The translations under genes were made by a program, and so were the position numbers. Of a DNA stretch of 64,000 bases, positions 18,690-58,037 are shown piece after piece (position 1 is the first letter of the stretch; every line of letters starts with the position of its first letter). Source of the stretch: Cheiracanthium punctorium (taxonomy: Eukaryota; Arthropoda; Arachnida; Araneae; Cheiracanthiidae); the NCBI GenBank assembly GCA_038373885.1, contig JAWZYV010012351.1:1-64000 (forward strand), in the 5' to 3' direction. The notes under the pieces are model-generated. The model saw nothing but the letters and a program-made list of their open reading frames with translations, did no database searches and was not told where the DNA came from.

Positions 18690-19780
18690 AGTACATCTAT
18701 ATAAATAAAATTAGACTTTTGTCTGTACATTTCTTGGAATTCAAAAATTTTGCGGTTTCTATCCGTTTCAAGCACCTGGGAATCCGGTGTGACCCTCAAA
18801 AAAAAGTTTGTCTGTCGTTCTGCCATTCTGTCCGTGACGCTTTTTTTTTGTTCAAGCATCACGTAAAAACGACTGAAGCGAATGATATGAAATTTGGTGT
18901 CATGATAGGTGGTTACTCAACTTAAAACATAGGCATTGAATTTTTAAAAAATCTTGATTGGATTTTGAGATTTTGCGAAAATCCTTTCAAACTGCGTAAA
19001 TTTGTGTTCGAGCATCACGTATAAGCGACTGAAGCAAATAAAATGAAATTTGGTATCATGATTGATGCTCTCTCAACTTAAAACATAGGCATCAAATTCT
19101 TAAAAAATCTTGATTAGATTTTGAGATTTTGCGAAAATCGTTTCAAACTGCGTAAGTTTGTGTTCGACCATCAAGTAAAAACGACTGAAACGATTGAAAT
19201 GAAATTTGGTATCATCATAGGTGGTAATTCAACTTGAAACACTGGCGTCGAATTTAAAAAAAAATCTTGATTAGATTTTGAGATTTTGTGAAAATCTTTT
19301 CAAACTGCGTAAATTTCTGCGTAAACGCATTACGTAATAACGACTAAAGCGAATGATATGAAATTTGGGCACATGATAGATGGTTGTTCAACATAAACTA
19401 TAGGTGTCCAATTTTTTAAACATTTTTATTAGATTTTGAGTAACGACTAATACGAATGCTACGAAATTTGGTGATATGATAGGTAGTTGCTAATCTTAAT
19501 TTATAGGCGTTGAATTTTTAAAATATTTTGATTACATTTTGAGATTTTGTGAAAATCGTTTTAAAATGCTGAAATTTTGTTCCAGCATCACGAAATAAAG
19601 ACTGCAGGGAATGAAACGAAATTGGGAGACATGATAGGTTGTCACTCCACTTAAATTCTAGGCTTCCAATTTTTCAAAAATATTGATTAGATTTTGAGAT
19701 TTTGCTAAAATTATTTCAATATGTGTCAATATTCGCTCGTGCATCACATAATTACGACTAAAGTGAATGAAATGATATCA
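18690..19780. repeat. Tandem repeat, period ~155 bp, six to seven units
   Basis: Each unit has 'AGCATCACGTAAAAACGACTG', 'AATG..ATGAAATTTGG', 'CATGATAGGTGGT..CTCAACTTAAA', 'AAAAATCTTGATTAGATT' and 'TTTGCGAAAATC.TTTCAAA.TGCG'. The field begins with 'CTATATAAATAAAATTAGAC' and 'TTTGTCTGT', a common lead-in of arthropod repeat elements. Confidence 0.75.
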
Positions 19781-21953: not shown

Positions 21954-22239
21954 TGTACACACGTCAGCTCAGGCACAACTCTAAAAACTTTGAATGAATA
22001 AAGTGGACTGTATATTAAAAATACTCTTTATTTTAATCTGGATTTAACAATTTTTGCTGCAGCGTGTATATATCTCGTAACGCCACAGCACACATTTACC
22101 TCTCAAGGCATCTCGTGCACGGTCTCGTACCGTTCTGACCGGGAGAAGCGAGAATGCAGAGCTGGCCCTCCGCTGCTAACCACTTGAGAGCCACTTCAAA
22201 AGATTTAAGACAGGTGCTGCAGACAGAGGCGCTCAAACA
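21954..22239 (-). repeat. BEL 3' LTR (286 bp)
   Basis: Read on the minus strand it starts TGTTTGAGCGCC and ends GTGTACA. It contains a TATATA box (near 22064-22072) and an AATAAA polyadenylation signal (22027-22032, minus strand). It pairs with 27814-28101. Confidence 0.95.
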
Positions 22240-22251
22240 TCCTCCCCCCGT
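22240..22251 (-). promoter_or_regulatory. BEL polypurine tract
   Basis: On the minus strand ACGGGGGGAGGA abuts the TG of the 3' LTR. This is the expected plus-strand DNA priming site of the element. Confidence 0.85.
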
Positions 22252-22399
22252 TGAAATTATACAAATTTCAACAATATTTAAAAACATGTAATCTACATTC
22301 ACAAATTAAAAAAATATGTATATATATAGTACATAAACAGCAAGTACAAAAAAAAGTATACAAAGCAAATTTATACACCCAGTTCTACAATCGAAAAAT

Positions 22400-27589: not shown

Positions 27590-27792
27590 TTTATAACAAA
27601 CTCAATAACTAATTTATAACTCAAAACAATGATAAAAATAAATTCAATTAAAGGCTAAACACAACTCTTAACTCTAAAGAATAATAACACAAATTATCTC
27701 AAGGGAGTAAATGACCAGAAAAGCTCAGCACCTACTTCGTCACTTGTTACACAAAGGAACTTCATTTATATCCATAAGGCACCGGAACCGTC

Positions 27793-27810
27793 TCACGTGA
27801 AGACGGACCA
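27793..27810 (-). promoter_or_regulatory. BEL primer-binding site
   Basis: Three nucleotides inside the 5' LTR, the minus strand reads TGGTCCGTCTTCACGTGA. The TGG start complements the CCA end of a tRNA. The tRNA identity was not determined. Confidence 0.65.
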
Positions 27811-27813
27811 AAA

Positions 27814-28101
27814 TGTACACACGTCAGCTCAGGCACAACTCTAAAAACTTTGAATGAATAAAGTGGACTGTATATTAAAAATAAAGTCTTTATTTTAATC
27901 TGGATTTAACAATTTTTGCTGCAGCGTGTATATATCTCGTAACGCCACAGCACACATTTACCTCTCAAGGCATCTCGTGCACGGTCTCGTACCGTTCTGA
28001 CCGGGAGAAGCGAGAATGCAGAGCTGGCCCTCCGCTGCTAACCACTTGAGAGCCACTTCAAAAGATTTAAGACAGGTGCTGCAGACAGAGGCGCTCAAAC
28101 A
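27814..28101 (-). repeat. BEL 5' LTR (288 bp)
   Basis: This is the promoter-bearing copy for the element. It matches 21954-22239 except for a 2-nt indel near the polyadenylation signal that I noticed by eye. It is followed by the CCGGG duplication. Confidence 0.95.
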
Positions 28102-34090: not shown

Positions 34091-34108
34091 TCACCAGTCT
34101 TATTATGT

Positions 34109-35095
34109 ATACCAGTTTCAAGTAAAATCCAGTTTCAAATCTAAGCCTCGCCAAAGTGCCAGCATACGCCATTTTGCAAGAGTTTTTTCAGGAAATCATT
34201 CGAAGCATTGACTTAGCAGCAATCAAAATGGGAAATGGTTTGATCGCCACGCATTTTTTTGAAAAGTGGAATCCCTTAATACAGCCCCATTTTTTAAATT
34301 ATCAACGATAACATGTTTTATTCCTCGTTACCTCGATGTACTAAATGCGAAGATTTCAATTTTCTGAAATTTGACGGATTTCCCCCAGGTTAAATCAATG
34401 TACTCAATTGGCGAGAATTCTGAAGCTACATCGCTTGAAATGCCCTAATAACTGCATTATTTCTGCACGGATAGTTAAAATTTAATGCTGTATTCTAAGA
34501 AAACCTATACACTTGTTTTCAAAAATGCTATTCCCTTAAGCTCTCAGTAAATTGCGCCAAAAAGCCTAAAACTGTGCAAACTGCTAGAACTCATTTTCTA
34601 AAAATCGAACTATCAGCCATTTTATTTTTCGCCAAACTAAAAAAATTTACATATTAGTCTCGGAGATCTTCGATCCTCATTGTTTTGCGTATAAAACATT
34701 TCATTCCTGCTCTCATTTCTTATGCGCACACGATATTATAATTAAAAAAATAACCTTACAAATATAAACTAAGAAAATCATTATTATTCTTTTATTTTCA
34801 CTTTAAGAATTTAAAACATTTTATTCGGCAAAATCGCCACACATGGCAACCGAGATGCTAATTTCACACTTTCACTACAGGGGTTACAATTACATAAAGC
34901 TTTCTGCGTGGAGAACATAAAAAATCTCTTAAATTCCGGGAACGGGTGGACTTTCAAAGTTTTAAAGTAGACTATCATTTATTCTATATTATTTTACATA
35001 TATCTGTGTAAAATTTCAGGCTGACAGGTCCATTTTTGTGGAATTGTATACTACCCAAATCAACAAACAGAATTTTATTTTTATTTATAAGATAA
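34109..35095 (+). repeat. ~1-kb direct repeat, copy A (uninterrupted)
   Basis: It runs from 'CCAGTTTCAAGTAAAATCCA' to 'CAGAATTTTATTTTTATTTATAAG'. At 34811-34835 it carries the intact site where the palindrome inserted in copy B, 'TTAAAACATTTTATTCGGC'. Non-coding. Confidence 0.75.
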
Positions 35096-35099
35096 CCTA

Positions 35100-35996
35100 C
35101 GCTTGTTTTTAAAAATACCCTCTCATTAAATTGCGCCAAGCGCTAGAATCATAGAAAATTTGACACACTTTCAGATTTTAAATACGCACTAAAGTGCTAT
35201 ATATAAAAAGAGTTATAATCCATAGGTCTTCCCTATTTTCGTTCCTTATTTTATTAAGTTGGAAAGTGTATCATTATTCATGAGTGTGATTAAACAAAAT
35301 TAAAATTGATATTTCTAACATCCTTTTTTCTGGATGTAATATATTAGAAATAGATGCAATAAAGCTGCTCAGAAAAATGCACAAGTCCAACTGAATGAAA
35401 ATTTCAAAAACTTATACGCAGGTGTATTCATAACCCAAATAGCAGACTATTAAATTACGATAAATAGCGCCAAGCGTTAGAATCCTCCTAAAAATCGCAC
35501 ATCAACCCCTTTTATTTTTCGCCCAATTAAAAAGTTGCACATTTATTTCCGGAAAATTTCCAAATTCTATTTTTCTTTTGAGTATAAATCATTTCATTCC
35601 CGCTCTGATTTCACATGCACACGATATTTTAATTTAAAAACAACCTTACAAATAATCTAGTCAAAATAAAAAAAATCGTTATTCTTTTATTTTTACTTCA
35701 AGAGTCTGAATCATTTAATGAACTGCCGAATGTGGCAACCTAGATAATCTTAATCGTCGCCTAATGCACTGTGGGGTTACAATTACGAAATGGCGGAAAG
35801 CAAAAATTAGCCTTTTGAGATACGTTTTTATCGATATTTCCTAAAATAGTTCGAATTTTGAAAAAATCGTTTCGAGGTGTCTCGGGACCTGTCATGGAGA
35901 ATTTCCGTTCAAAAATTGGTAGGTCTACGATCACCCGTTTGCGAGCTACGCGAGACACAGACAAACAGTTTACACACATTGTTTTATTAATATAGA
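35100..35996 (+). repeat. Diverged third copy of the ~1-kb repeat
   Basis: Blocks such as 'TTGCGCCAAGCGCTAGAATC', 'TTTTATTTTTCGCCCAATTAAA' and 'CACACGATATTTTAATTTAA' follow the order of copy A, but with deletions. It lies between copies A and B. Confidence 0.6.
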
Positions 35997-36706
35997 TACC
36001 AGTCTCAAATAAAATCAAGTTTCAAATCTAAGCCTCGCCAAAGTGCCAATATACGCCATTTTGCAAGAGTTTTTTCAGGGAATCATTCGAAGCATTGACT
36101 TAGCAGCAATCAAAATGGGAAATGGTGCGACCGCCAGGCATTTTTTTGAAAAGTGGAATCCCTTAATACAGCCTCATTTTTTAAATTATCAACTATAACA
36201 TGTTTTATTCATCGTTACTCCGATGTACTATATGCGAAGATTTCAATTATCTGAAATTTGGCGGAATTCCCCCAACTAAAATCAATGCACTCGATTGGCG
36301 AGAATGCTGAAGATAGATCGCTTGAAATCCCTTAATAACTGCATTATTTCTGCACGGATCATTAAAATTTAACGCTGTATTCTAATAAAACCTTTGCACT
36401 TGTTTTCAAAAATCCGTTTCCTTAAGCTCTCAGTAAATTGCGCCAAGCCGGAAACAGTGCAAACCGCTAGAACTCACTTTCTCGGCATTTGAGCCATTTT
36501 ATTTTTTCGCCAAACTAAAAAATTTTAACATATTAGCCTCGGAAATCTTCAATTCTTATTGTTTTGCGTATAAAACATTTCATTCCTGCTCCGATTTCCC
36601 ATGCACACGATATTATAATTTTAAAAAAATAACCTTACGAATATAAACTAACAAAAAAAAATCATTATTATTCTTTTATTTTTACTTTGAGAATTTAAAA
36701 CATTTT
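35997..36706 (+). repeat. ~1-kb repeat, copy B, left part (split by the palindrome)
   Basis: It matches copy A from 'ACCAGTCTCAAATAAAATCA' up to 'AGAATTTAAAACATTTT', where the palindrome begins. The repeat resumes at 51915. The last six bases, CATTTT (36701-36706), are the left target duplication. Confidence 0.85.
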
Positions 36707-36864
36707 AGTAGTAGATAAATAAGAGTTCTGCCCATGCGCAGCCATGTTAATCGTGCGCAGCCATACAAGTGCGTTCCCTGGGTCGAGAGAGAGAGAGGGG
36801 GGGCGTGGTCGGACCGGATGCTAAGACCGGATGTTCAAAGGGTTGATAAGAATTTTTTTCCTTT

Positions 36865-37090
36865 TTTTCAAATAAGGGGACTTGAAATTTTTTTCAGATT
36901 GTGACATATTTTTGAAATAAGGGGACTTGGAAAAATTTTCAGACTTTAACAATTTTTCAAATAAGGATACTTGTAATTTTTTTCAGATTGTGACATATTT
37001 TTGAAATAAGGAGACTTGTAATTTTTTCAGACTTTAACATTTAGTATCAAAATAAGAGACTTTGACATAATTTTAAATAAGCTATACTTT
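36865..37090. repeat. Left subterminal tandem repeat (~40-bp units)
   Basis: About five units of 'AAATAAGGGGACTTG' plus 'TTTTTCAGA.T.TGACA'. It mirrors 51340-51765, where there are more units. Confidence 0.8.
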
Positions 37091-37329
37091 ATGAATTAAA
37101 CCTGAAATAAAAAATATTATTATAAAATGAGGACCCACCAGCCGCCCGGTAGAATTCGTCTACCGCCTCATTTCAAATAAAAATTCTTACTGTGCCTTTC
37201 CCCATCACGCTAGCCTCGCATGAATGGAGACAGGGCGTAGCACAGAGGATGCGTTGTTGTTTTTGTTTCTTTAAATAATAATTAACTATGTGGAGCAAAG
37301 AAATGAACAACATCCCCAGGAGGCCTACG

Positions 37330-38940
37330 AACTTTAATTTTAAGTTAAATAAGTAATTTTACAACAAATATTTTTTTAACCAAGTTTTAATTTTTAGTTA
37401 AATAATTTTACAACAAATATTTTTTACCAAGTTTTAATTTTACAACAAATATTTTTTACCAAGTTTTAATTTTAAGTTAAATAATTTTACAACAAATATT
37501 TTTTTAACCAACAGTTTTAATTTTAAGTTAAATAATTTTACAACAAATATTTTTTAAATTAATTTTACAACAAATATTTTTTTAATCAAGAGTTAATTTA
37601 TTTTTTAACCAAGTTTTAATTTTAAGTTAAATAATTTTACAACAAATAATTTTTAACCAAGTTTTAATTTTAAGTAAATAATTAATTTTAGAACAAATAT
37701 TTTTTAATCAAATGTTTTTAATTTATCAAGAAAAAAAAATTTAATCAAGTGTTTTTAATTTTTTGTATACCGCATTTTTGTTAAGTAGTCGTTTAACATT
37801 AAAGTAAGGTTTAGGATACCCATACATTTTCTACAAATTTAATCTACTGTTAGGCAAGTGAGAAAATTATACCATAGAAAGATTGTAGTACCTATAGTTT
37901 TTACAAAGTATACATACATACATTAGTAAAACATAATAAGATATAGTCTTATATTTTATTGCGAGAAAACCACTTTAGCCATATATCCCAAAAAACCCAA
38001 GTTTTTGTATACGAAATGCATGAATACGCGTTAGATCCCCTTAGAAAGTCTTCCTACCAAGGCACCCCTCATCCTAAGCAGATACCCCCGCGTGCAGGTT
38101 TGCCTTAAAGCACAAACAAACAATTTTAAGTTAAATATTTTTCTAAATTTATTTTTAATCAAGAGTTTTAATTTTAAGTTAATAATTTTACAACAAATAT
38201 TTTTTTAACCAAGTTTTAATTTTAAGTTAATAATTTTACAACAAAAATTTTTTTAACCAAGTTTTAATTTTAAGTTAAATAATTTTACAACAAATATTTT
38301 TTTAACCAAGTTTTAATTTTAAGTTAATAATTTTACAACAAAAACTTTTTTAACCAAGTTTTAATTTATAGTTAAATAATTTTACAACAAATATTTTTTT
38401 AATCAAGAGTTAATTAATTTTTATTTTATTTTTTTAACCATGAGTTTTAATTTTAAGTTAAATAATTTTACAACAAATATTTTTTTACCAAGTTTTAATT
38501 TTAAGTTAATAATTAATTTTACAACAAATATTCATTTAATCAAATGTTTTTAATTTATCAAGAAAAAAAAATTTATTCAAGTGTTTTAATATTTTGTATA
38601 CCGTATTTTTGTTAAGTAGCCGTTAAACATTAAAGTAGGATTCAGGATACCCATATATTTTCTACAAATTTCTTCTACTGTTAGGGAAGTGAGAAAATTA
38701 TACCATAGAAAGATTTTAGTACCTACAGATTTTACAAATAATGATTTGGATATAGTCTTATTTTCTATTGCGAGAAAACCACTTTAGCCATATATCCCCC
38801 AAAACTCAAGTTTTTGTATACGAAATGCATGAATACGCGTTAGATCCCCTTAGAAAGTCTTCCTACCAAGGCACCCCTCATCCTAAGCAGATACCCCCGC
38901 GTGCAGGTTTACCTTAAAGCACAAACAAACAAAGTATTTA
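37330..38940. repeat. Left-arm AT-rich ~48-bp repeats, present as a ~0.8-kb tandem duplication
   Basis: Units of 'AAGTTTTAATTTTAAGTTAA' plus 'ATAATTTTACAACAAATATT' fill 37330-37745 and again 38130-38575. Each block is followed by a unique 'GTATACCG.ATTTTTGTTAAG' segment and a SINE-type tail (38005-38125 and 38815-38935, 'GAATACGCGTTAGATCCCC' ... CACAAACAAACAA). The right arm has one copy of this module. Confidence 0.8.
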
Positions 38941-41490
38941 TCTAAACATTTTTTCTTACCCACACAGTTTTGATAAATTTTAGGCAGCGATTATACTAGT
39001 TTATATTTTCTATAGATCAATTAGAGAAAAAATTACATTTTTAGTAATCCTACAAAATATTCTTACTGTATATCCCAAGTAGAGTAACTTGATTTATAGA
39101 ATTTCAATACGATACGAGTTAGATTGTTTATGTGCAAAACTCATCTCAGATTGACTATGAAAGCATAATTTTATACATGCATTAATATTTTTAGAGGTAT
39201 GCACTTAGCATATTTTATAGAAAGGTGAGCATAACTAGCACAAACTTTTAGACTAGATAGTACTATTGTTAGAAAGTTGAACTATTGGAAATAAAAATTG
39301 AAGATCCGTTTTAGCACAGTTGTACATAAATATCTTTCAATACTTAGATAGTTTAAATCGCAAATCCTTACTTAAACTAAAAAATACAAGGTGTTTACTT
39401 ACGTGAAGCCGCATCTTCTAGCCTCTCGGCTTGTACCGACATCTATACGGCTAGCAAGACCGGAAAATCGAATAATGATTTAAAATACATTATCCCTAAT
39501 TCCCGGTCCAACTAGCACATTTTCATTACTTCTTAATACCATCATATGCTGAAAATAGACATAATATTTTGACACTAAAAACAAAATAACACATTTGAAG
39601 ATATTAAACGCTTTAAAAGTAATTTTTTTCTTATAACAATACTATTTTATGTAGGATAAAATTAGTTAGCCACGAAAATGTAATCTTAATTAGAATTTAC
39701 TGAAATACAAATACCATGCATGCCTTATTTTCTATTAGGAGAAAGCCCTCAAACCCCAGTTTTTGTATACAAACTGCATAAAGTACTTCTACCGATAATG
39801 CTATTAATATTAATTACACTGGATTACCCACTTAAAATTTTGCAAAACACCAAAATACAGAAAAACATGCATTAACAAAAAAAATCACACTTAAAAGTAC
39901 AACACATCAAAAGTGCAACTATAAGAACCACATAATTATTTTCAATTAGAATTACGGTATCAACTTATATGTAACTAAAATAATAGAAAATATTACACTT
40001 ACCCTATACTTGTACACGCGAGAGGTGAAAATAATAAAAATACATAATAATTCACAAAAGAATGATTGAAGTAAAATCCACGTGCCTGTGATATTGCTGA
40101 TAACAGAAATTTAGAGATAAGAGAGTGCCTTGAGGCTCTACAGAGCCGGTACAATAAGAGTTGGCCAGTTTGCCGATAAGATAAAACCAGGGAGGGTGCT
40201 AGGGGTATGCAATTGGGGACACGTGTTTCATTCTACGTTCAAAAATGGGGACTTATGGATGAAGATGTTTACTACTTAAAAACATAATCTAATTTTTACA
40301 AACGCATTGGAACTTTGTAAAGGATATCTATTGAACACGTATTAAATAGATTATGATTATTCTTCTGATCGACATTATATCCTAAATTAAAATATCAAAG
40401 TTAAGCTACAACGATTAATATATTTTATATAGTTTATGAAAATAATGAATCATTAAATTAATTTCTGTGAAACAATTAGCAAAGATCATTATACTAAAGC
40501 AAATTATTTTTGTTAAGTTTTGATAAATAACAGTAATAAATTATAGGCATTGCAGATGAATGAGTATTCACGTATAAAATAGGTATTAAAATTATTGTTT
40601 AAAACAATTTTTAGAATAATAAACTAAAATTTTTATTTAATAAAGTCATAAACTAAAATTATTAATTAAAACTTGTTAATAAATTAAACATATCAAAATT
40701 TTTACACTCAGTTTTTTTATAGACTTAAATTTTACATAGACATCCTTTTAATAAATGCATAAACTAAACTTATTGTTTAAAACAATTTTTTACAATAATA
40801 AACTAAAATTTTTATTTAATAAATTCATAAACTAAAACAATTTTTACAATAATAAACTAAAATTTTTTTAATAAAGTCATAAACTGAAATTATTAATGAA
40901 AACCTGTTAATAAACTAAACTGATTACTCTAAAAGATAGCTAATCACAACATATATCTGAAAAAATATAAGCAATTATAATACCTGAAAAATAACGGACA
41001 ACACTCTTGTTGCATGCGGACAAAACATCGTTCTGCTCGGCTAAAGAATTCTTAGTTACCCGTTGCAGGAGACCTTACCTACGCCCAACCTACAAACTCT
41101 ACAAATTTAACGGCAACTGATTTTCTCTTATCAGGTATCACAGATCAGATAAGAGATAAGGAAGTGACATGCGCAGAAGACACGTGATAGTGACGTGTGC
41201 AAATCTGTGTTGATTTAATATCCGCTAGGTTCGTTGGCAGGATGTACTATTTGCAATTAGGGGCAACTCTTAGTAACAGGCTAAGACAAGTTAGATGATG
41301 CAATATCTACTGGGTTGAGAAAGTTTTAAGGTAGAGGGCGCTTGGGTAATCACGTGATTTTTTAAAGAATCAGTATAGAGACATTTTAGTTAGATAAAGT
41401 GGCCAGGTGTGTGTTGCGAGACTCTCTTTACACTGTGTGCGCCTATACTTAAGACGTGTGTTTTAATTGATTTTTCGCCGAGTTTCAAAA
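38941..41490. other. Left-arm non-coding stretch and gene 5' flank
   Basis: AT-rich, without another credible frame on either strand. At 40259-40372 a 114-bp patch replaces the mirror sequence. 40560-40920 holds short repeated 'ATAAACTAAAATTTTTATTT' words. The last ~100 bp before the gene are GC-richer, with 'CTATACTTAAG' about 35 nt upstream of the ATG as a possible weak TATA region. Confidence 0.5.
40259..40372. other. Left-arm-specific 114-bp patch
   Basis: The mirror symmetry breaks after 'ACTTATGG' and resumes at 'CATTATATCCTAA'. The right arm has an unrelated 61-bp patch at 48830-48890. Confidence 0.8.
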
Positions 41491-43038
41491 ATGTCTTTGC
41501 TTGAATCGATCGAAAATAACTTTAACATTGAATACTCTCCCGAGTTTTATACTCAAAGTGATGCCGATGTGTTGCTGCAAGAAATAATACAATTGCCTTT
41601 AGATGTAAAGCCTCTGCAAAGTATTGAAAAGAAAATTTCCCCCGAGTTTTATACTGAAAGTGATGTTGACGTGCTACAGCAAGAACTGTTGCAATTACCC
41701 CTGCAAAGTAGTGAAAAGAAAATTTCCTCGACCCGTAAAGTAATTACTTTTGCTGATGAAGGAATCAATTACAGTTTACCTGGAGCAACAGTCTCTGTTT
41801 ACTCTTGGATACCCATTTTGCAAAAAATACGTGAAGATCTACAGAAAGTGACAAATTATGAATTTAATATGGTGCAAGTGAACTTTGGCTCTGAAGAACA
41901 ACCTAAAATGGAAGACGGCAACTACGAAGATTTTAATCTAGACCTATCATCAGGTGTATGCATTCTAAGTTTTGGATCTAAACGAACTTTGGATTTTAAA
42001 CCAGCGAACTGTGAAACCGCTACCATTAAATTAGAACATGGCTCAATGTGTAAGATATATCCCCCAACCAACAAACTTTTAACGCATGGTATTCCTTCGG
42101 AACCTTATGTGACAGACCCGCACATTAACCTTACATTTGCCAAAATGTACATTTATGAGCCTTCCCCGAAAAGGGTAAAGTTGGACAATTGGACGGACGA
42201 TCTTTACCATAGCTTATATGCTTCTGTAAATAGTACATGGCACTTGGAAAGACTTATCTACGTTTCACTTCACGATGAAAGAACTGACTTGAAGATCCAT
42301 ATTAGACAATTTATTCAGAATGCCCAATTAGACTATATACCAACCGGTCAGGGAGTCGTGATGAACCCTTCCACATGGATCGAATTTATTGTAAAACTAT
42401 TAGATTTTAATATAGGTCATAGCAATAGCTCTTTTATTTGTAATAATCAATTATCTGTATTTAATGACGATGGAAAATGTATCTTACAACAAATTTACAA
42501 AACCGCAGATTCATTCACGTTAAATCCAATTTCCTTAACACTTTTAAATGATCAAGTAAAAAAACTTTGCGAAATGAGAAATGAAATATTGGAATGCATT
42601 TTAAAAACGCTATACACGACGACCCTGCCTCATTTAATTTTAAAATTAAAGCAGCAAAAATGTAACCGCGAACCCCATTGTAATTATGATGAGGCGAAAC
42701 AACAATTAATGGATATAGTACATCAGGAAATTTTTAAAAACATAGGCCGGGTTCAGGATCATTCTTCGCAAAGGATACATGCCTGTTCGAATAGAACACA
42801 TATTGATGAGCGAGAGGGTCTTATAAATAGTAAAGCATGGTTTACGGTTGATATGCCGTATATTGCAAGAGAGATATGCGAGAAAAAATGCACTTGTCAT
42901 TATGACGGAGAATTTTTTTCAAACATTTTCATTGAAGACTATATGAAGTATCTTCAAAATGAGCTATTTAATTCATTTTTTCAACCGTTTTCAGATTTTG
43001 TGAATTCCAAGGATGACAAAACATGTGTAATTATGTGA
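41491..43038 (+). CDS. Degenerate AlkB-like (ALKBH2/3-type) protein with CaaX box, 515 aa, left arm
   Basis: Start chosen at the ATG at 41491 (context TTTCAAAAATG); the frame is open 24 nt further upstream but lacks an ATG. Residues 16-49 and 50-78 are a tandem duplication (SPEFYT.SD.DVL.QE..QLPL), resembling the entry to an AlkB domain. Residues 81-220 follow the ALKBH2/3 order: TRK..TFADEGINYSLPG (81-98), WIPIL (106-110), VTNYEFNMVQVN (120-131), CILSFGSKR (157-165), LEHGSM (181-186), PPTN (191-194), HGIP (199-202), INLTF (212-216). The iron-binding HxD is absent (no His between 132 and 182), and the two 2-oxoglutarate arginines are His211 and Ala217. Demethylase activity is therefore unlikely; binding of nucleic acid or a partner is possible. 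KRVKLD (227-232) matches the Myc nuclear signal. Residues 234-511 are unrecognised, with CxxxCxCH at 463-470. The C-terminus CVIM is a CaaX box. Intronless. The twin copy has Leu for Phe125. Confidence 0.85.
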   Translation: MSLLESIENNFNIEYSPEFYTQSDADVLLQEIIQLPLDVKPLQSIEKKISPEFYTESDVDVLQQELLQLPLQSSEKKISSTRKVITFADEGINYSLPGATVSVYSWIPILQKIREDLQKVTNYEFNMVQVNFGSEEQPKMEDGNYEDFNLDLSSGVCILSFGSKRTLDFKPANCETATIKLEHGSMCKIYPPTNKLLTHGIPSEPYVTDPHINLTFAKMYIYEPSPKRVKLDNWTDDLYHSLYASVNSTWHLERLIYVSLHDERTDLKIHIRQFIQNAQLDYIPTGQGVVMNPSTWIEFIVKLLDFNIGHSNSSFICNNQLSVFNDDGKCILQQIYKTADSFTLNPISLTLLNDQVKKLCEMRNEILECILKTLYTTTLPHLILKLKQQKCNREPHCNYDEAKQQLMDIVHQEIFKNIGRVQDHSSQRIHACSNRTHIDEREGLINSKAWFTVDMPYIAREICEKKCTCHYDGEFFSNIFIEDYMKYLQNELFNSFFQPFSDFVNSKDDKTCVIM

Positions 43039-44570
43039 TGTATAACTAGTATTGCGATTGTAAAAAATATATTAAAATCATTGTAGAAAAGGTATGCTTG
43101 CTTCTACAACAGTAAGATTTTACTCACTTGTGCATGCTTAGTTATAGAATACTCATTGAAAAGTTATTATTTTCTTAATTGTGTAAATAGTTTGTGTAAT
43201 TTAAAATATGTTTTTGTAAATAAATAAGTTTAAACATGAAAACTTTTCTGTGTTTTCTTTATGTGTATGTGCGTGTTGATTACTTGCAAAATAAAAATCT
43301 ATTAAATAAAAAGTGATAAAGTTAGCATACTTGGTCACGATTTAAGGTTCTCGTTTTATACTTATCTTTTATACACTACAAGGTAGAAAGTTAGAAATTT
43401 AACAAAATTTATTGAAGCATGTACTATGGAAACATTAATCTACTACATAGAATTAAAATGTTTTGATTAAAATCATAAACTTAAGTGTGATAGGTAAATT
43501 GTGTTACATGAGAATTCCCAAAGTACTAATTTTTTATAAAATGAACTTAGCTAAAAAGTTAGTTTCCATAATTTTATAACTTAATCGATTTTACAGGTTT
43601 TTCAAAAATAAAGTTAAGTGAGATAAAGAAACTTAGTATTTTTAAATAAAGATTTTTTAGGTGTTCTTTAATGTAAAGATCTTACCATATTTTACTTGAA
43701 GTAACAGAATATTTAAAATCATACACTATGTTTTTAAAACATTAGAGTATTACCTTGGCATATTTTTTTAATTTTTATTAAGTAATGGGCTTGAATATTT
43801 TTATGAGAAATATCAACTAAGTGCACATGTTACACATTTTACTGATTGAGATGGTTATGCTTACAAATTTTAAATAAATATGCTCTTACTTTTATACATG
43901 TTACTTGTTCAAACTAAGTATACTTTTGATTTGTATACGTTTATGAGTTCTCATAAAATATGAAATTATTTCTCGAAAGGAACTTAGCTATTAGAACTTT
44001 GTAAATTTCGTAGAAGTAGTATGCTTAACATGTTTTTGATAAAATAGATTTAAATGTGGTACAGAAATGATCAGCTATTTTAGCATAGATGTATAAACTT
44101 ATCTTTATGTAAACCTTAACTAAATAAAAGTAATATAATTTATGTCTGTACAAAGTGAGGGACTTAGACTATTTTTCAGAATTATCAAATAAAGGGTTTT
44201 ACAAAATACTTAGTAAACTGCATTAATAGATTGTAAGGTGTAATTTTTTCTTTTAGAAGTTTTGCACATTGGTATATTTTATGTTCTGATAAGTCGTTGA
44301 ATATGTTCTTGAAATAAACTAACATATCTGTACTTTGAAAATTTTATAGAAGTGACGAACTTTGGTATTTTTAGAATGTTACGAACTTGATACATTTTTT
44401 CTGAAGTGCCAGATATGTGAAATTGTCTTTTTAGAAACATTGAATTATTCATATTAGTGCATTTCAGTTACTCTTTCAAGATAACGGACTTAGAATTTTT
44501 TACAAATAGCAAGCTAGTAACTTGCTAAACATGCTTCTTGCAAATATTTTTAAATACCGTTCTTAAAAAT
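43039..44570. other. Left-arm 3' flank of the AlkB-like gene
   Basis: AT-rich non-coding sequence up to the symmetry centre. It includes the polyadenylation signal at 43219. No further frame or RNA gene is seen. Its mirror is 44637-46169. Confidence 0.6.
43219..43224 (+). terminator. Polyadenylation signal of the left AlkB-like gene
   Basis: AATAAA about 180 nt after the stop codon, followed by a T/GT-rich stretch (43246-43280) of the downstream-element type. The mirror copy lies at about 45983-45988. Confidence 0.65.
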
Positions 44571-44636
44571 TATCAAAGTTGTAACTACTAAAAGAAATAA
44601 ACAAATTAAAATATAATAAATTAAGTAGACACTGTG
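44571..44636. other. Palindrome spacer, 66 bp
   Basis: AT-rich sequence between the last left-arm bases CCGTTCTTAAAAAT (ending 44570) and the first right-arm bases ATTTTTAAGAACGG (from 44637). It is not itself symmetric. Confidence 0.9.
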
Positions 44637-46169
44637 ATTTTTAAGAACGGTATTTAAAAATATTTGCAAGAAGCATGTTTAGCAAGTTACTAGCTTGCTA
44701 TTTGTAAAAAATTCTAAGTCCGTTATCTTGAAAGAGTAACTGAAATGCACTAATATGAATAATTCAATGTTTCTAAAAAGACAATTTCACATATCTGGCA
44801 CTTCAGAAAAAATGTATCAAGTTCGTAACATTCTAAAAATACCAAAGTTCGTCACTTCTATAAAATTTTCAAAGTACAGATATGTTAGTTTATTTCAAGA
44901 ACATATTCAACGACTTATCAGAACATAAAATATACCAATGTGCAAAACTTCTAAAAGAAAAAATTACACCTTACAATCTATTAATGCAGTTTACTAAGTA
45001 TTTTGTAAAACCCTTTATTTGATAATTCTGAAAAATAGTCTAAGTCCCTCACTTTGTACAGACATAAATTATATTACTTTTATTTAGTTAAGGTTTACAT
45101 AAAGATAAGTTTATACATCTATGCTAAAATAGCTGATCATTTCTGTACCACATTTAAATCTATTTTATCAAAAACATGTTAAGCATACTACTTCTACGAA
45201 ATTTACAAAGTTCTAATAGCTAAGTTCCTTTCGAGAAATAATTTCATATTTTATGAGAACTCATAAACGTATACAAATCAAAAGTATACTTAGTTTGAAC
45301 AAGTAACATGTATAAAAGTAAGAGCATATTTATTTAAAATTTGTAAGCATAACCATCTCAATCAGTAAAATGTGTAACATGTGCACTTAGTTGATATTTC
45401 TCATAAAAATATTCAAGCCCATTACTTAATAAAAATTAAAAAAATATGCCAAGGTAATACTCTAATGTTTTAAAAACATAGTGTATGATTTTAAATATTC
45501 TGTTACTTCAAGTAAAATATGGTAAGATCTTTACATTAAAGAACACCTAAAAAATCTTTATTTAAAAATACTAAGTTTCTTTATCTCACTTAACTTTATT
45601 TTTGAAAAACCTGTAAAATCGATTAAGTTATAAAATTATGGAAACTAACTTTTTAGCTAAGTTCATTTTATAAAAAATTAGTACTTTGGGAATTCTCATG
45701 TAACACAATTTACCTATCACACTTAAGTTTATGATTTTAATCAAAACATTTTAATTCTATGTAGTAGATTAATGTTTCCATAGTACATGCTTCAATAAAT
45801 TTTGTTAAATTTCTAACTTTCTACCTTGTAGTGTATAAAAGATAAGTATAAAACGAGAACCTTAAATCGTGACCAAGTATGCTAACTTTATCACTTTTTA
45901 TTTAATAGATTTTTATTTTGCAAGTAATCAACACGCACATACACATAAAGAAAACACAGAAAAGTTTTCATGTTTAAACTTATTTATTTACAAAAAACAT
46001 ATTTTAAATTACACAAACTATTTACACAATTAAGAAAATAATAACTTTTCAATGAGTATTCTATAACTAAGCATGCACAAGTGAGTAAAATCTTACTGTT
46101 GTAGAAGCAAGCATACCTTTTCTACAATGATTTTAATATATTTTTTACAATCGCAATACTAGTTATACA

Positions 46170-47717
46170 TCACATAATTACACATGTTTTGTCATCCTTG
46201 GAATTCACAAAATCTGAAAACGGTTGAAAAAATGAATTAAATAGCTCATTTTGAAGATACTTCATATAGTCTTCAATGAAAATGTTTGAAAAAAATTCTC
46301 CGTCATAATGACAAGTGCATTTTTTCTCGCATATCTCTCTTGCAATATACGGCATGTCAACCGTAAACCATGCTTTACTATTTATAAGACCCTCTCGCTC
46401 ATCAATATGTGTTCTATTCGAACAGGCATGTATCCTTTGCGAAGAATGATCCTGAACCCGGCCTATGTTTTTAAAAATTTCCTGATGTACTATATCCATT
46501 AATTGTTGTTTCGCCTCATCATAATTACAATGGGGTTCGCGGTTACATTTTTGCTGCTTTAATTTTAAAATTAAATGAGGCAGGGTCGTCGTGTATAGCG
46601 TTTTTAAAATGCATTCCAATATTTCATTTCTCATTTCGCAAAGTTTTTTTACTTGATCATTTAAAAGTGTTAAGGAAATTGGATTTAACGTGAATGAATC
46701 TGCGGTTTTGTAAATTTGTTGTAAGATACATTTTCCATCGTCATTAAATACAGATAATTGATTATTACAAATAAAAGAGCTATTGCTATGACCTATATTA
46801 AAATCTAATAGTTTTACAATAAATTCGATCCATGTGGAAGGGTTCATCACGACTCCCTGACCGGTTGGTATATAGTCTAATTGGGCATTCTGAATAAATT
46901 GTCTAATATGGATCTTCAAGTCAGTTCTTTCATCGTGAAGTGAAACGTAGATAAGTCTTTCCAAGTGCCATGTACTATTTACAGAAGCATATAAGCTATG
47001 GTAAAGATCGTCCGTCCAATTGTCCAACTTTACCCTTTTCGGGGAAGGCTCATAAATGTACATTTTGGCAAATGTAAGGTTAATGTGCGGGTCTGTCACA
47101 TAAGGTTCCGAAGGAATACCATGCGTTAAAAGTTTGTTGGTTGGGGGATATATCTTACACATTGAGCCATGTTCTAATTTAATGGTAGCGGTTTCACAGT
47201 TCGCTGGTTTAAAATCCAAAGTTCGTTTAGATCCAAAACTTAGAATGCATACACCTGATGATAGGTCTAGATTAAAATCTTCGTAGTTGCCGTCTTCCAT
47301 TTTAGGTTGTTCTTCAGAGCCAAAGTTCACTTGCACCATATTTAATTCATAATTTGTCACTTTCTGTAGATCTTCACGTATTTTTTGCAAAATGGGTATC
47401 CAAGAGTAAACAGAGACTGTTGCTCCAGGTAAACTGTAATTGATTCCTTCATCAGCAAAAGTAATTACTTTACGGGTCGAGGAAATTTTCTTTTCACTAC
47501 TTTGCAGGGGTAATTGCAACAGTTCTTGCTGTAGCACGTCAACATCACTTTCAGTATAAAACTCGGGGGAAATTTTCTTTTCAATACTTTGCAGAGGCTT
47601 TACATCTAAAGGCAATTGTATTATTTCTTGCAGCAACACATCGGCATCACTTTGAGTATAAAACTCGGGAGAGTATTCAATGTTAAAGTTATTTTCGATC
47701 GATTCAAGCAAAGACAT
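46170..47717 (-). CDS. Degenerate AlkB-like protein with CaaX box, 515 aa, right arm
   Basis: This is the inverted twin of 41491-43038, transcribed toward it. ATG at 47715-47717, stop at 46170-46172. I noticed only two base differences in 1548 bp. One changes residue 125 from Phe to Leu; one is silent (GAT/GAC in the VDMP stretch). All domain features are the same: the duplicated SPEFYT motif, AlkB-type core without HxD and without the two arginines, KRVKLD signal, unassigned C-terminal region and CVIM end. Retention of two open copies suggests either a recent origin, gene conversion between the arms, or selection. Confidence 0.85.
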   Translation of the reverse strand: MSLLESIENNFNIEYSPEFYTQSDADVLLQEIIQLPLDVKPLQSIEKKISPEFYTESDVDVLQQELLQLPLQSSEKKISSTRKVITFADEGINYSLPGATVSVYSWIPILQKIREDLQKVTNYELNMVQVNFGSEEQPKMEDGNYEDFNLDLSSGVCILSFGSKRTLDFKPANCETATIKLEHGSMCKIYPPTNKLLTHGIPSEPYVTDPHINLTFAKMYIYEPSPKRVKLDNWTDDLYHSLYASVNSTWHLERLIYVSLHDERTDLKIHIRQFIQNAQLDYIPTGQGVVMNPSTWIEFIVKLLDFNIGHSNSSFICNNQLSVFNDDGKCILQQIYKTADSFTLNPISLTLLNDQVKKLCEMRNEILECILKTLYTTTLPHLILKLKQQKCNREPHCNYDEAKQQLMDIVHQEIFKNIGRVQDHSSQRIHACSNRTHIDEREGLINSKAWFTVDMPYIAREICEKKCTCHYDGEFFSNIFIEDYMKYLQNELFNSFFQPFSDFVNSKDDKTCVIM

Positions 47718-50214
47718 TTTTGAAACTCGGCGAAAAATCAATTAAAACACACGTCTTAAGTATAGGCGCACACAGTGTAAAGAGAGTCTCGCAACACACA
47801 CCTGGCCACTTTATCTAACTAAAATGTCTCTATACTGATTCTTTAAAAAATCACGTGATTACCCAAGCGCCCTCTACCTTAAAACTTTCTCAACCCAGTA
47901 GATATTGCATCATCTAACTTGTCTTAGCCTGTTACTAAGAGTTGCCCCTAATTGCAAATAGTACATCCTGCCAACGAACCTAGCGGATATTAAATCAACA
48001 CAGATTTGCACACGTCACTATCACGTGTCTTCTGCGCATGTCACTTCCTTATCTCTTATCTGATCTGTGATACCTGATAAGAGAAAATCAGTTGCCGTTA
48101 AATTTGTAGAGTTTGTAGGTTGGGCGTAGGTAAGGTCTCCTGCAACGGGTAACTAAGAATTCTTTAGCCGAGCAGAACGATGTTTTGTCCGCATGCAACA
48201 AGAGTGTTGTCCGTTATTTTTCAGGTATTATAATTGCTTATATTTTTTCAGATATATGTTGTGATTAGCTATCTTTTAGAGTAATCAGTTTAGTTTATTA
48301 ACAGGTTTTCATTAATAATTTCAGTTTATGACTTTATTAAAAAAATTTTAGTTTATTATTGTAAAAATTGTTTTAGTTTATGAATTTATTAAATAAAAAT
48401 TTTAGTTTATTATTGTAAAAATTGTTTTAAACAATTAGTTTATGCATTTATTAAAAGGATGTCTATGTAAAATTTAAGTCTATAAAAAAACTGAGTGTAA
48501 AAATTTTGATATGTTTAATTTATTAACAAGTTTTAATTAATAATTTTAGTTTATGACTTTATTAAATAAAAATTTTAGTTTATTATTCTAAAAATTGTTT
48601 TAAACAATAATTTTAATACTTATTTTATACGTGAATACTCATTCATCTGCAATGCCTATAATTTATTACTGTTATTTATCAAAACTTAACAAAAATAATT
48701 TGCTTTAGTACAATGATCTTTGCTAATTGTTTCACAGAAATTAATTTAATGATTCATTAGTTTCCTAAACTATATAAAATATATTAATCGTTGTAGCTTA
48801 ACTTTGATATTTTAATTTAGGATATAATGCCCATGTTTACAAAAAGGATAGATTTTTATTGAAATGGCTTTAATCTAACATGATCTTAATCCATAAGTCC
48901 CCATTTTTGAACGCAGAATGAAACACGTGTCCCCAATTGCATACCCCTAGCACCCTCCCTGGTTTTATCTTATCGGCAAACTGGCCAACTCTTATTGTAC
49001 CGGCTCTGTAGAGCCTCAAGGCACTCTCTTATCTCTAAATTTCTGTTATCAGCAATATCACAGGCACGTGGATTTTACTTCAATCATTCTTTTGTGAATT
49101 ATTATGTATTTTTATTATTTTCACCTCTCGCGTGTACAAGTATAGGGTAAGTGTAATATTTTCTATTATTTTAGTTACATATAAGTTGATACCGTAATTC
49201 TAATTGAAAATAATTATGTGGTTCTTATAGTTGCACTTTTGATGTGTTGTACTTTTAAGTGTGATTTTTTTTGTTAATGCATGTTTTTCTGTATTTTGGT
49301 GTTTTGCAAAATTTTAAGTGGGTAATCCAGTGTAATTAATATTAATAGCATTATCGGTAGAAGTACTTTATGCAGTTTGTATACAAAAACTGGGGTTTGA
49401 GGGCTTTCTCCTAATAGAAAATAAGGCATGCATGGTATTTGTATTTCAGTAAATTCTAATTAAGATTACATTTTCGTGGCTAACTAATTTTATCCTACAT
49501 AAAATAGTATTGTTATAAGAAAAAAATTACTTTTAAAGCGTTTAATATCTTCAAATGTGTTATTTTGTTTTTAGTGTCAAAATATTATGTCTATTTTCAG
49601 CATATGATGGTATTAAGAAGTAATGAAAATGTGCTAGTTGGACCGGGAATTAGGGATAATGTATTTTAAATCATTATTCGATTTTCCGGTCTTGCTAGCC
49701 GTATAGATGTCGGTACAAGCCGAGAGGCTAGAAGATGCGGCTTCACGTAAGTAAACACCTTGTATTTTTTAGTTTAAGTAAGGATTTGCGATTTAAACTA
49801 TCTAAGTATTGAAAGATATTTATGTACAACTGTGCTAAAACGGATCTTCAATTTTTATTTCCAATAGTTCAACTTTCTAACAATAGTACTATCTAGTCTA
49901 AAAGTTTGTGCTAGTTATGCTCACCTTTCTATAAAATATGCTAAGTGCATACCTCTAAAAATATTAATGCATGTATAAAATTATGCTTTCATAGTCAATC
50001 TGAAATGAGTTTTGCACATAAACAATCTAACTCGTATCGTATTGAAATTCTATAAATCAAGTTACTCTACTTGGGATATACAGTAAGAATATTTTGTAGG
50101 ATTACTAAAAATGTAATTTTTTCTCTAATTGATCTATAGAAAATATAAACTAGTATAATCGCTGCCTAAAATTTATCAAAACTGTGTGGGTAAGAAAAAA
50201 ATGTTTAGATAAAT
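47718..50214. other. Right-arm non-coding stretch
   Basis: Mirror of 38941-41490, with the gene's 5' flank at 47718-47820. No extra gene. Confidence 0.6.
48830..48890. other. Right-arm-specific 61-bp patch
   Basis: It occupies the position of the left-arm patch 40259-40372 but has a different sequence. Symmetry is intact on both sides. Confidence 0.8.
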
Positions 50215-51085
50215 ACTTTGTTTGTTTGTGCTTTAAGGTAAACCTGCACGCGGGGGTATCTGCTTAGGATGAGGGGTGCCTTGGTAGGAAGACTTTCTAA
50301 GGGGATCTAACGCGTATTCATGCATTTCGTATACAAAAACTTGAGTTTTGGGGGATATATGGCTAAAGTGGTTTTCTCGCAATAGAAAATAAGACTATAT
50401 CCAAATCATTATTTGTAAAATCTGTAGGTACTAAAATCTTTCTATGGTATAATTTTCTCACTTCCCTAACAGTAGAAGAAATTTGTAGAAAATATATGGG
50501 TATCCTGAATCCTACTTTAATGTTTAACGGCTACTTAACAAAAATACGGTATACAAAATATTAAAACACTTGAATAATTTTTTTTTTCTTGATAAATTAA
50601 AAACATTTGATTAAATGAATATTTGTTGTAAAATTAATTATTAACTTAAAATTAAAACTTGGTAAAAAAATATTTGTTGTAAAATTATTTAACTTAAAAT
50701 TAAAACTCATGGTTAAAAAAATAAAATAAAAATTAATTAACTCTTGATTAAAAAAATATTTGTTGTAAAATTATTTAACTATAAATTAAAACTTGGTTAA
50801 AAAAGTTTTTGTTGTAAAATTATTAACTTAAAATTAAAACTTGGTTAAAAAAATATTTGTTGTAAAATTATTTAACTTAAAATTAAAACTTGGTTAAAAA
50901 AATTTTTGTTGTAAAATTATTAACTTAAAATTAAAACTTGGTTAAAAAAATATTTGTTGTAAAATTATTAACTTAAAATTAAAACTCTTGATTAAAAATA
51001 AATTTAGAAAAATATTTAACTTAAAATTAAAACTTGGTTAAGAAAAATATTTGTTGTAAAATTACTTATTTAACTTAAAATTAAA
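50215..51085. repeat. Right-arm AT-rich ~48-bp repeats and SINE-type tail, single module
   Basis: A SINE-type tail on the minus strand (50215-50345, TTTGTTTGTTTGTG then 'CACGCGGGGGTATCTGC') is followed by the unique segment and one block of 'TTAACTTAAAATTAAAACTT' repeats. It corresponds to one of the two modules in 37330-38940. Confidence 0.8.
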
Positions 51086-51339
51086 GTTCGTAGGCCTCCT
51101 GGGGATGTTGTTCATTTCTTTGCTCCACATAGTTAATTATTATTTAAAGAAACAAAAACAACAACGCATCCTCTGTGCTACGCCCTGTCTCCATTCATGC
51201 GAGGCTAGCGTGATGGGGAAAGGCACAGTAAGAATTTTTATTTGAAATGAGGCGGTAGACGAATTCTACCGGGCGGCTGGTGGGTCCTCATTTAATTACA
51301 ATAAAATTTTTTATTTCAGGTTTAATTCATATAGCTTAT

Positions 51340-51765
51340 TTAAAATTATGTCAAAGTCTCTTATTTTGATACTAAATGTTAAAGTCCCTTATTTGAGAAA
51401 TATGTCACAATCTGAAAAAAATTACAAGTATCCTTATTTGAAAAATTGTTAAAGTCTGAAAATTTTTCCAAGTCTCCTTATTTCAAAAATATGTCACAAT
51501 CTGAAAAAAATTACAAGTCCCCTTATTTGAAAAATATGTGAAAATCTGAAAATTTTTCCAAGTCCCCTTATTTCAAAAATATGTCACAATCTGAAAAAAA
51601 TTACAAGTATCCTTATTTGAAAAATATCTTAAAGTCTGAAAAAATTACAAGTATCCTTATTTGAAAAATTGTTAAAGTCTGAAAATTTTTCCAAGTACCC
51701 TTATTTGAAAAATATGTCACAATCTGAAAAAAATTACAAGTCCCCTTATTTGAAAAAAAGGAAAA
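51340..51765. repeat. Right subterminal tandem repeat (~40-bp units)
   Basis: About ten units of 'CAAGT..CCTTATTTGAAAAA' plus 'T.TCACAATCTGAAAAAAATTA'. It is longer than the left counterpart (36865-37090). The open frame starting at 51669 is a by-product of these repeats and the flank. Confidence 0.8.
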
Positions 51766-51914
51766 AAATTCTTATCAACCCTTTCCAACTTCCTCTCCCC
51801 ACATCCGGTCCGACCACGCCCCCCTTCCCCGCTCAACCCAGGGACAACATCCGAACGGCGTACCGGCGAATTAACATGGTACCGGCTGAGGTGAACTCTT
51901 ATTTATCTACTACT

Positions 51915-52210
51915 CATTTTATTCGGCAAAATCGCCACACATGGCAACCACGATCCTTATTTCACACATTTTTCACTACAAGGGTTACAATTACGGAAAG
52001 CTTTTTGCGTGGAGAACATAAAAAATCTCTTAAATTCCGGGAACGGGTGGTCTTTCAAAGTTTTAAAGTGGACTATCATTTATTCTATATTATTTTACAT
52101 ATCTGTGCAAAATTTCAGGCTGATAGGTCCATTTTTGTAGATTTGTATACGAATCAAATCCACAAACAAACAAACAAACAAACAGAATTTCATTTTTATT
52201 TATAAGGATA
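51915..52210 (+). repeat. ~1-kb repeat, copy B, right part
   Basis: It begins with the right target duplication CATTTT (51915-51920) and continues 'ATTCGGCAAAATCGCCACAC', as in copy A at 34816-35090. It ends in CAAACAAACAAACAAACAAA and 'TTTTTATTTATAAGGATA'. Confidence 0.85.
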
Positions 52211-54012: not shown

Positions 54013-54477
54013 GAATGTAGGAAAAAACGCCGCCGGAAAAAACGCCACCGGAAAAAACGCCGCCGGAAAAAACGCCACCTGGAAAAAACGCCGCCGGAAA
54101 AAACGCCACCTGGAAAAAACGCCGCCGGATAAAACGCCGCCGGAAAAAACGCCACCTAAAAAGATATTTGTGTAATAATTTATTTAAATACTTGAAAAAA
54201 TTTCTTTTCTTTTGCAGAAAAGGGGAGGTATGAAGTTGAATTATGAGGTTTAATGTATTTTGTTTTCCAGAAATGGGGGAAGACACATGTCAAATTGAAT
54301 AATTCAATTTGTGTATAATTTGGTAGGCGTTAAGGAAGGGGGGAGGGGGATAGACTTTCCTAGAAAGATTTCGGTTTTCGCTAACAAAAAAACAAAAAAA
54401 AAGAAAAAATAGATTTCCACTTAACAGTAAATGAAGCTTTTAGGGAGTATGACCCCCCAAAAACCATTCAGGTACGC

Positions 54478-57470: not shown

Positions 57471-58037
57471 TCCTTGCCTCGTCGATTAGCATATAAAGAC
57501 TGTGTTACATCATAAAACGATTAAAAGTAGATTACTATTAAAAGTAGCGTTTTTTCCGGCGGCGTTTTTTCCGGCGGCGTTTTTTCCGGGTGGCGTTTTT
57601 TCCATGTGGCGTTTTTTCCGGCGGCGTTTTTTCCAGCGGCGTTTTTTCCGCTCACCAGATTCGGGCTAGGAAAAGACGTTTATGTGGGTGCTTCGGGCTT
57701 ATAAAAAAATTACGTTGTATGCTGAGCACCAGCAATCGTCTGATAACCCCAACACAGTGATGTACACTCAAGGAGGGTTCCACCCCCCCCCCCCCCGCCC
57801 CAATTATGCCATTACATAATATGAATATTTGTAAAGCATACTGAACTTTTTGCATTATTTCAGTGCTAAAATGCTTTATTTGCTTATTAGTTGTGTGATA
57901 TTTTAAAAGTTTAAAAGAAAATCTTTAATGAGGCCAAATGTTTCTGGGTGCTTCGGCATGGACGTCCATATGAGCCCTATTTGAGCACCCATGTTCTTTA
58001 TAATTCAGATGCGCATGAGGAACTTCGATGAGACAAT

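Follow-up and report, generated by a model that had tools for sequence, protein, structure and literature searches.

A palindromic element with Polinton-type ends in Cheiracanthium punctorium, probably a satellite of Polintons

To our knowledge, the protein-primed replication of Polinton/Maverick transposons has so far been assumed from the genes they carry and the motifs at their ends. Defective genomes of the snap-back type (hairpin, inverted-duplication), as in adenovirus and phi29, are passing by-products of laboratory growth or infection; virophages and transpovirons are satellites of giant viruses. Published descriptions of Polintons/Mavericks give an (AG)3 or (AGT)2 end motif, stated for vertebrate Mavericks, together with 6-bp target-site duplications (PMC8097293; for Polinton features also PMC4028283), and the end-motif repeats are linked to the jumping-back step of protein-primed copying (PMC8097293). 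In this study, a 64,000-nt stretch of Cheiracanthium punctorium (the window, analysed as C7304:1–64000 in a 2.53-Gb genome of 15171 contigs) was examined, in which a palindrome at 36707–51914 carries one gene twice, encoding a protein with AlkB and PC4 domains. We consider it probable that this element is a palindromic satellite of Polintons, copied via a protein-primed hairpin and inserted by a Polinton integrase.

The palindrome resembles Polintons/Mavericks, including adintovirus-like ones, in its (AGT)2-type ends, 6-bp duplications, terminal sequence, subterminal repeats and an AlkB–PC4 gene such as the Polintons of this genome carry; it differs in being wholly palindromic, in that no gene for protein-primed DNA polymerase B (PolB), integrase, ATPase, protease or capsid was found in it, and in having lost the HxD motif and the arginines of the oxygenase site. 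Like snap-back defective genomes, it has one end mirrored and could be copied by an end-primed polymerase, and inverted duplication, a short loop and microhomology were all seen in the palindromes of the window family; the only parts of a known Polinton recognisable in the arms were the ends and AlkB–PC4. In contrast to those defective genomes, the family is heritable, with hundreds of integrated copies and its own selected gene. Long inverted repeats, repeat-rich outer parts and non-autonomous copies are shared with the Foldback/Galileo transposons, but the latter encode a P-superfamily transposase, in place of which the palindromes carry one non-transposase gene, twice, inside the repeat. 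The target duplications of Foldback/Galileo also differ in length from 6 bp, whereas those found here were 6 bp in 11 of 11 copies and the sole long frame was AlkB–PC4. As a probably helper-dependent element sharing the signals of its helper, the palindrome is comparable with virophages and transpovirons (cf. PMC3671162), but it has no capsid gene, is palindromic, and resides in a large eukaryotic genome beside Polintons. A full-text literature search, with most subscription journals outside it, found among the papers listed no link of Polintons with AlkB or PC4, and no palindromic Polinton, comparable palindromic transposon or non-autonomous Polinton; snap-back adenovirus genomes were likewise missed, so that its coverage was thin.

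The left arm (36707–44570, forward strand, 7864 bp) carries subterminal tandem repeats and a single gene aimed at the centre, and a 66-bp spacer (44571–44636) separates it from the right arm (44637–51914, reverse strand, 7278 bp). Both arms end in the same 22 bp, AGTAGTAGATAAATAAGAGTTC, of the (AGT)2-type Polinton motif (36707–36728, forward; 51893–51914, reverse), and the 6-bp target-site duplication CATTTT lies outside either end (36701–36706 and 51915–51920). The arms, the spacer, the shared 22-bp end and the duplication had been put forward in a preliminary description of the window, and self-comparison and end comparison confirmed them, including the Polinton character of the inverted ends, which contain AGTAGTAG, and of the 6-bp duplication. 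In detail, 38122–40266 matched 51028–48883 with 99.8% identity and the inner stretch 40373–48829 was self-inverted with 99.3% identity; the outermost ~1.4 kb of the arms reached only 83–89%. The gene at 41491–43038 (forward, 515 aa) and its mirror at 46170–47717 (reverse) differed at 2 bases of 1548 sites (0.13%).

When the flanks of the palindrome were joined, they matched 34320–35069 (forward strand) across the insertion point (query positions 1–748 of 1000, 87.7% identity). This natural empty site is a duplicate of the target region with one CATTTT and no insertion, indicating that exactly 36707–51914 was inserted as a single unit, as the preliminary description had proposed. The 500 bp on either side of the window copy were mutually unrelated. 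The window palindrome is real and forms a discrete unit, bounded by Polinton-type ends and flanked by a 6-bp duplication. The window also holds a direct duplication (88%) of 34100–34823 and 35987–36707, the second copy of which the palindrome interrupts.

The genome was then found to contain a family of such palindromes. For the arms, AlkB–PC4, PolB, integrase and subterminal sequence the best-scoring genome matches were listed, so all counts from these searches are lower bounds. The first kilobase of the left arm gave at least 56 matches (best 40 of 2056 candidates scored), and ten loci with opposite matches 13–15 kb apart were extracted entire, making 11 copies with that of the window. All 11 were palindromic and bore perfect 6-bp duplications, each different, and the left and right 500-bp flanks were unrelated in 10 of the 11, the exception (L021) having one 145-bp inverted match; the terminus of L013 had diverged, with one extra base at its left end. 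The existence of further copies with the same ends and duplications, which the preliminary description had named as a check, was thus borne out. Allowing ≤3 mismatches, the terminus AGTAGTAGATAAAYGAGAGTTC had 743 forward and 736 reverse genome matches (1479 together), compared with 11 and 7 (18) for the pattern read backward as a control; very roughly 740 elements of all kinds would therefore bear it. Individual places were listed for 100 of the 1479 matches, and 24 opposite-end neighbours were measured out of those 100. More than one related element may lie on a single contig (e.g., C2584 and C5453). The contigs C4223, C7533 and C14955 apparently stop within family elements, a sign of assembly breaking at palindromes.

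Polintons of the same genome share these ends. The protein-primed PolB profile PF03175 had 34 genome matches, and the Polinton on contig C6745 was ordered as integrase, Peptidase_C5 protease, Pox_A32-type ATPase, AlkB–PC4 and PolB, followed by a terminus of the palindrome type. Its integrase was recognised by an 80% match to that of C1077, whose frame matched the rve and chromo domains. With the AlkB–PC4 protein of C6745 as query, at least three loci (group I) were found, followed by matches at about 44–51% (group II) and 38–40% (group III). PolB and integrase stood on the expected sides and strands in 28 of 57 group I/II AlkB loci, and one of the two in 18, as counted with 87 of 91 AlkB entries (four partial ones omitted), 68 of 68 PolB entries and 81 of 115 integrase entries (34 omitted, mostly lower-scoring, broken or partial). 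Two of these 28 Polintons, C1418 and C1743, carried the terminus AGTAGTAGATAAACGAGAGTTC at either end, at distances of 16513 and 16448 bp; letter for letter, this is the end of the palindromes L009, L015, L019 and L021, and the window end is two bases off. Full Polintons with PolB, integrase and the same type of end, anticipated in the preliminary description, are therefore present. The C1077 Polinton also encodes a 320-aa PC4 protein (L030:8996–9955, reverse strand; E = 1.5e-7) in which Pfam shows no AlkB domain.

Recombination between palindromes and Polintons has taken place, with its product inserted as one unit. At C6745:139668–167930 (28.26 kb), a palindrome-family arm, the turn and the second arm to ~1.9 kb from its end are followed by the Polinton; the two ends of this recombinant matched at 100% over 491 bp and at 96.9% over 1.2 kb, and both flanks carried the same duplication, TTCGGT, so that the joint lies within one insertion. 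Among the matches listed, such a joint was found at C6745 only. Further, the integrase-side subterminal sequence was present on group III contigs and in none of the 11 window-family copies, and ends therefore seem to have been exchanged between elements.

The window protein comprises an AlkB (ALKBH2-like) domain, a PC4 domain and a conserved C-terminal region whose last residues are CVIM, which we take to be a CAAX-like motif. The AlkB domain matched the ALKBH2 chain 3rzg with E = 3.6e-16, and a five-protein profile gave E = 8.6e-41; with the window protein alone Pfam PF13532 scored under its cut-off (26 vs. 31.2 bits). The PC4 domain matched PDB 6ycs with E = 3e-5 when the profile A3 was used, and with E = 0.03, under the Pfam cut-off, for the window protein alone. 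At five oxygenase positions, H/D/H/R/R in Polintons, the window protein has G/Y/H/H/A, with the second histidine retained. The five residues were intact in 15 of 15 group I/II sequences, while the HxD motif and both arginines were gone, and the second histidine kept, in all 21 readable arms of the window family, designated family IV (22 arms checked; the left arm of L023 was unreadable at the HxD site). In group III-like sequences, HxD and both arginines were gone in 8/8 and the second histidine was kept in 1/8.

This loss of the iron-site motif suggests that the satellite can do without AlkB catalysis. The gene itself appears maintained: at least 84 genome matches to it were scored, all of full length and with no stops, including 18 convergent pairs, in a list drawn from the best of 3428 candidates that favours intact copies. 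Damage was seen among the 11 copies: L009 has a stop in both arms, L017 and L025 have an altered start codon in each arm and L015 (as extracted) in one, and L023 has a frameshift in one arm. The ratio of non-synonymous to synonymous substitution rates (dN/dS) within the family was 0.29 (55 pairs among 11 right arms; left arm of L023 excluded), and between the family and group III it was 0.25–0.29. Regional values, taken from a single pair (window right arm vs. L055 of group III), were 0.12 (PC4), 0.30 (AlkB), 0.31 (N-terminal part) and 0.23 (C-terminal part). By these ratios, the palindrome gene is under purifying selection, and by its identity of 34–37% to Polinton AlkB–PC4 (34% to the C6745 version over its length) it is long diverged from the Polinton version. 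A conserved PC4 domain beside a broken iron site would fit a role on single-stranded DNA, and the PC4-type protein probably serves a single-stranded replication stage. The further relatives found among 5.8 billion proteins were limited to P0002 (53% identity; source lgn, a 1963-bp contig) and P0003, an AlkB-domain protein from a firefly. In P0002 the first histidine is kept, but the HxD aspartate and both arginines are gone. No relative was found in IMG/VR. A structure prediction from two sequences reached a mean predicted local distance difference test (pLDDT) score of 29 and was not used.

The turns of the palindromes were compared at 31 loci (11 first read, 15 picked as paired and 5 as unpaired), with the joins mapped on the deepest arm, L013, whose two arms are 100% identical over 7183 bp. 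Fifteen different joins were distinguished, several with microhomology, the variants L009, L027 and L053 being uncounted. The commonest, 1607/1535 with a 6-bp microhomology (ATTTTT in the window), occurred in eight loci including the window, followed by 1592/1522 (four) and 1607/1557 (three). In L035 and L036 the same stretch is missing from both arms, indicating either that the deletion preceded the copying of one arm or that one arm was converted. Of the five loci listed with a single open reading frame (ORF), four were palindromes and the fifth (C8150) retains 88 bp of a second arm.

Within a copy, the main aligned stretches of the arms agreed by 97.8–100%, apart from the outer part of the window palindrome, and for the upstream segment each copy had its own arms nearest each other (11 of 11; 0–0.025 vs. 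0.032–0.052 to other copies). Arm mismatches in the window were concentrated in two blocks: 41 in the outermost 500 bp (36707–37206, with gaps vs. the opposite end) and 30 in the 500 bp at 3.5–4.0 kb (40207–40706), whose adjacent bins had none; each of the other 13 full bins had 0–1. Bins 2 and 3 also showed repeat length differences, and the partial last bin at the centre had 12 mismatches. The outer block is read as an end exchanged with another family member. Tested against 10000 uniform draws (incomplete last bin dropped, gap columns uncounted, L013 excluded because it has zero mismatches), the mismatches of the window copy, L009, L015, L025 and L027 were more clumped than in every draw (five of ten copies tested), and those of L011 and L021 were matched in only 112 and 11 draws, respectively.

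Inverted pairs were not confined to the window family. A group III palindrome at C5794 had arms of 99.7% identity over 1.3 kb around a 1.66-kb spacer, and at least six (+,−) pairs of group III were present among the matches listed. PolB formed at least 11 inverted pairs, all (−,+), 8 of 11 spaced 8.4–9.6 kb and most with frames of 1226–1235 aa; these would be palindromes bearing a polymerase in either arm. The mirror was seen in sequence for the pair at C12754 (L080, L081), where the inner 800 bp were 100% identical to their mirror, and for the centre at C1566, the other pairs being known from gene orientation. At C1566:801560–801950 (L077), a PolB gene sharing 98% identity with its C6745 counterpart contains a perfect 68-bp palindrome with no spacer; one arm has a local deletion, and the turn is possibly a fresh snap-back. 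Ends of the C12754 palindrome and the C1566 fold-back were looked for at the predicted places and not found there. Integrases formed at least five (+,−) pairs, known from gene orientation; at C11434:68301–82299, two opposed intact integrases adjoin mirrored subterminal sequence; over 338 aa, both are 100% identical to that of the C6745 Polinton. The orientations of the group III, PolB and integrase pairs match those expected from a mirrored Polinton end. The single opposite-strand AlkB pair among the 57 group I/II loci (two of the 57) was at C9435:65228–68675, where two group II genes with intact oxygenase residues face each other 569 bp apart; it is possibly a young palindrome of an ordinary Polinton.

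A scheme consistent with these observations requires a single type of end, a single polymerase and a single integrase, all of which could be supplied in trans. Polinton PolB would begin protein-primed synthesis at the palindrome ends, read as origins, and the displaced single strand would fold back into a hairpin open at one side, where renewed priming would copy round the loop and restore the full palindrome. Repair of the paired arms would make them alike, slips near the loop would shift the join, template switching would bring in blocks from other members or from Polintons, and Polinton integrase would insert the linear product, giving 6-bp duplications. Such copying would explain the like arms, the symmetric deletions, the shifting centres and the block imports. 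We infer the replication step, fold-back copying of protein-primed DNA, from the varied turn joins, the symmetric deletions and the inverted PolB and integrase pairs, which suggest that it occurred repeatedly. The preliminary description had a Polinton end copied back on itself; the joins and deletions suggest this step. The palindrome is not a single accident, since hundreds of family members share a long-diverged gene of their own, and the window copy probably descends from an existing palindrome instead of being a fresh copy of a Polinton end.

Several observations weigh against this account. Nine of the 15 joins fell within ~100 bp (reference 1521–1618), so many of them may have arisen by deletion within a single ancestral palindrome instead of by independent fold-backs, and L009, L037 and L039 resemble one-sided deletions. 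The arms were nearest each other in 9 of 11 copies for the ORF, 7 of 11 (one tie) for the inner and 9 of 11 for the outer segment; most exceptions coincide with clumped mismatches, and the segments concerned are read as block imports. In L017, L019 and L023, the mismatches were not clearly clumped. Gene conversion between arms after integration would equally make them alike. As L009, L017 and L025 are damaged in both arms and yet moved, the AlkB–PC4 protein can be supplied in trans, or the gene was lost late. Searches of the arms of the 11 copies found no PolB ORF or relic (four listed matches, all E > 5), no RVE-type integrase was found in the palindromes (searches included the C1077 frame), and packaging ATPase, cysteine protease and capsid were not found in the arms, the ORFs ≥100 aa of L029–L032 matching only AlkB–PC4 on either strand at E 1e-3. 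With no Polinton relic in the arms besides AlkB–PC4, descent from a Polinton end is carried by the ends and that gene, and the integrase-side subterminal sequence, as noted, is missing from all 11 copies. C1418 and C1743 are known by their termini and gene content, and the whole account is drawn from an assembled genome; an extrachromosomal form, a hairpin, a protein-linked end and transposition are predicted by it.

The clustering of joins, several with the microhomology typical of deletion joins, is what would be expected if the family were instead a non-autonomous transposon with long terminal inverted repeats (foldback type), descended from one ancestral palindrome, moved by Polinton integrase, with arms converted in the chromosome, centres shaped by deletion and no hairpin. 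Sex chromosomes are known to undergo conversion between the arms of their palindromes (PMC7023750). However, the insertions look young, with perfect duplications in 11 of 11, and yet their arms are already 97.8–100% alike; the block mismatches resemble imports at inter-copy divergence; and the inverted PolB and integrase pairs and the zero-spacer turn at C1566 argue for continuing palindrome formation. We therefore regard this explanation as unlikely, though it is the main rival. Far less probable is a mirror artefact, in which the assembler, which struggles where contigs such as C4223 and C7533 seem to end inside elements, reflected one real arm; this and chance were rejected by the block-wise arm differences, the identical 6-bp duplications in 11/11 loci with unrelated flanks in 10/11, the asymmetric centres and the empty site. 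The adjacent insertion of two Polinton-derived elements in opposite orientation, later joined, is equally improbable and was rejected, since more than one related element per contig does occur (C2584, C5453) but the centre holds no terminus, single ends lie outside and the empty site shows one insertion event.

Beyond a hairpin-copied satellite of Polintons, a wider reading may be put forward tentatively, at somewhat less than even chance: Polintons of this genome could be split into multipartite, hairpin-replicating palindromes whose PolB, integrase and AlkB–PC4 segments complement each other in trans and swap ends with full Polintons. The PolB kind would comprise C12754 and up to ten further pairs, the integrase kind C11434 and up to four, and the catalytically dead AlkB–PC4 kind would be that of the window.

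Elsewhere in the window, 21954–28101 is a BEL/Pao retrotransposon bounded by two ~288-bp repeats of 99% identity (long terminal repeats), with a 1729-aa frame (22400–27589, reverse strand) carrying Peptidase_A17, RVT_1 (just below cut-off), an integrase zinc finger and DUF5641. Tandem repeat arrays lie at 18845–19775 and at 54020–54162 with 57544–57650, the latter pair also being mutually inverted, and nothing in the window reached the gathering score in Rfam.

The anatomy of this palindrome family would record end-priming, strand displacement and fold-back, which would make protein-primed replication of Polintons testable from genome sequence and cell DNA. The family illustrates how virus-like transposons gain satellites, and a single-gene satellite isolates the AlkB–PC4 protein for functional study. 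If the multipartite reading were true, it would describe a segmented mobile element composed of mirror-image segments. Giant palindromes are usually unstable, and the family suggests that they could be a replicative life form.

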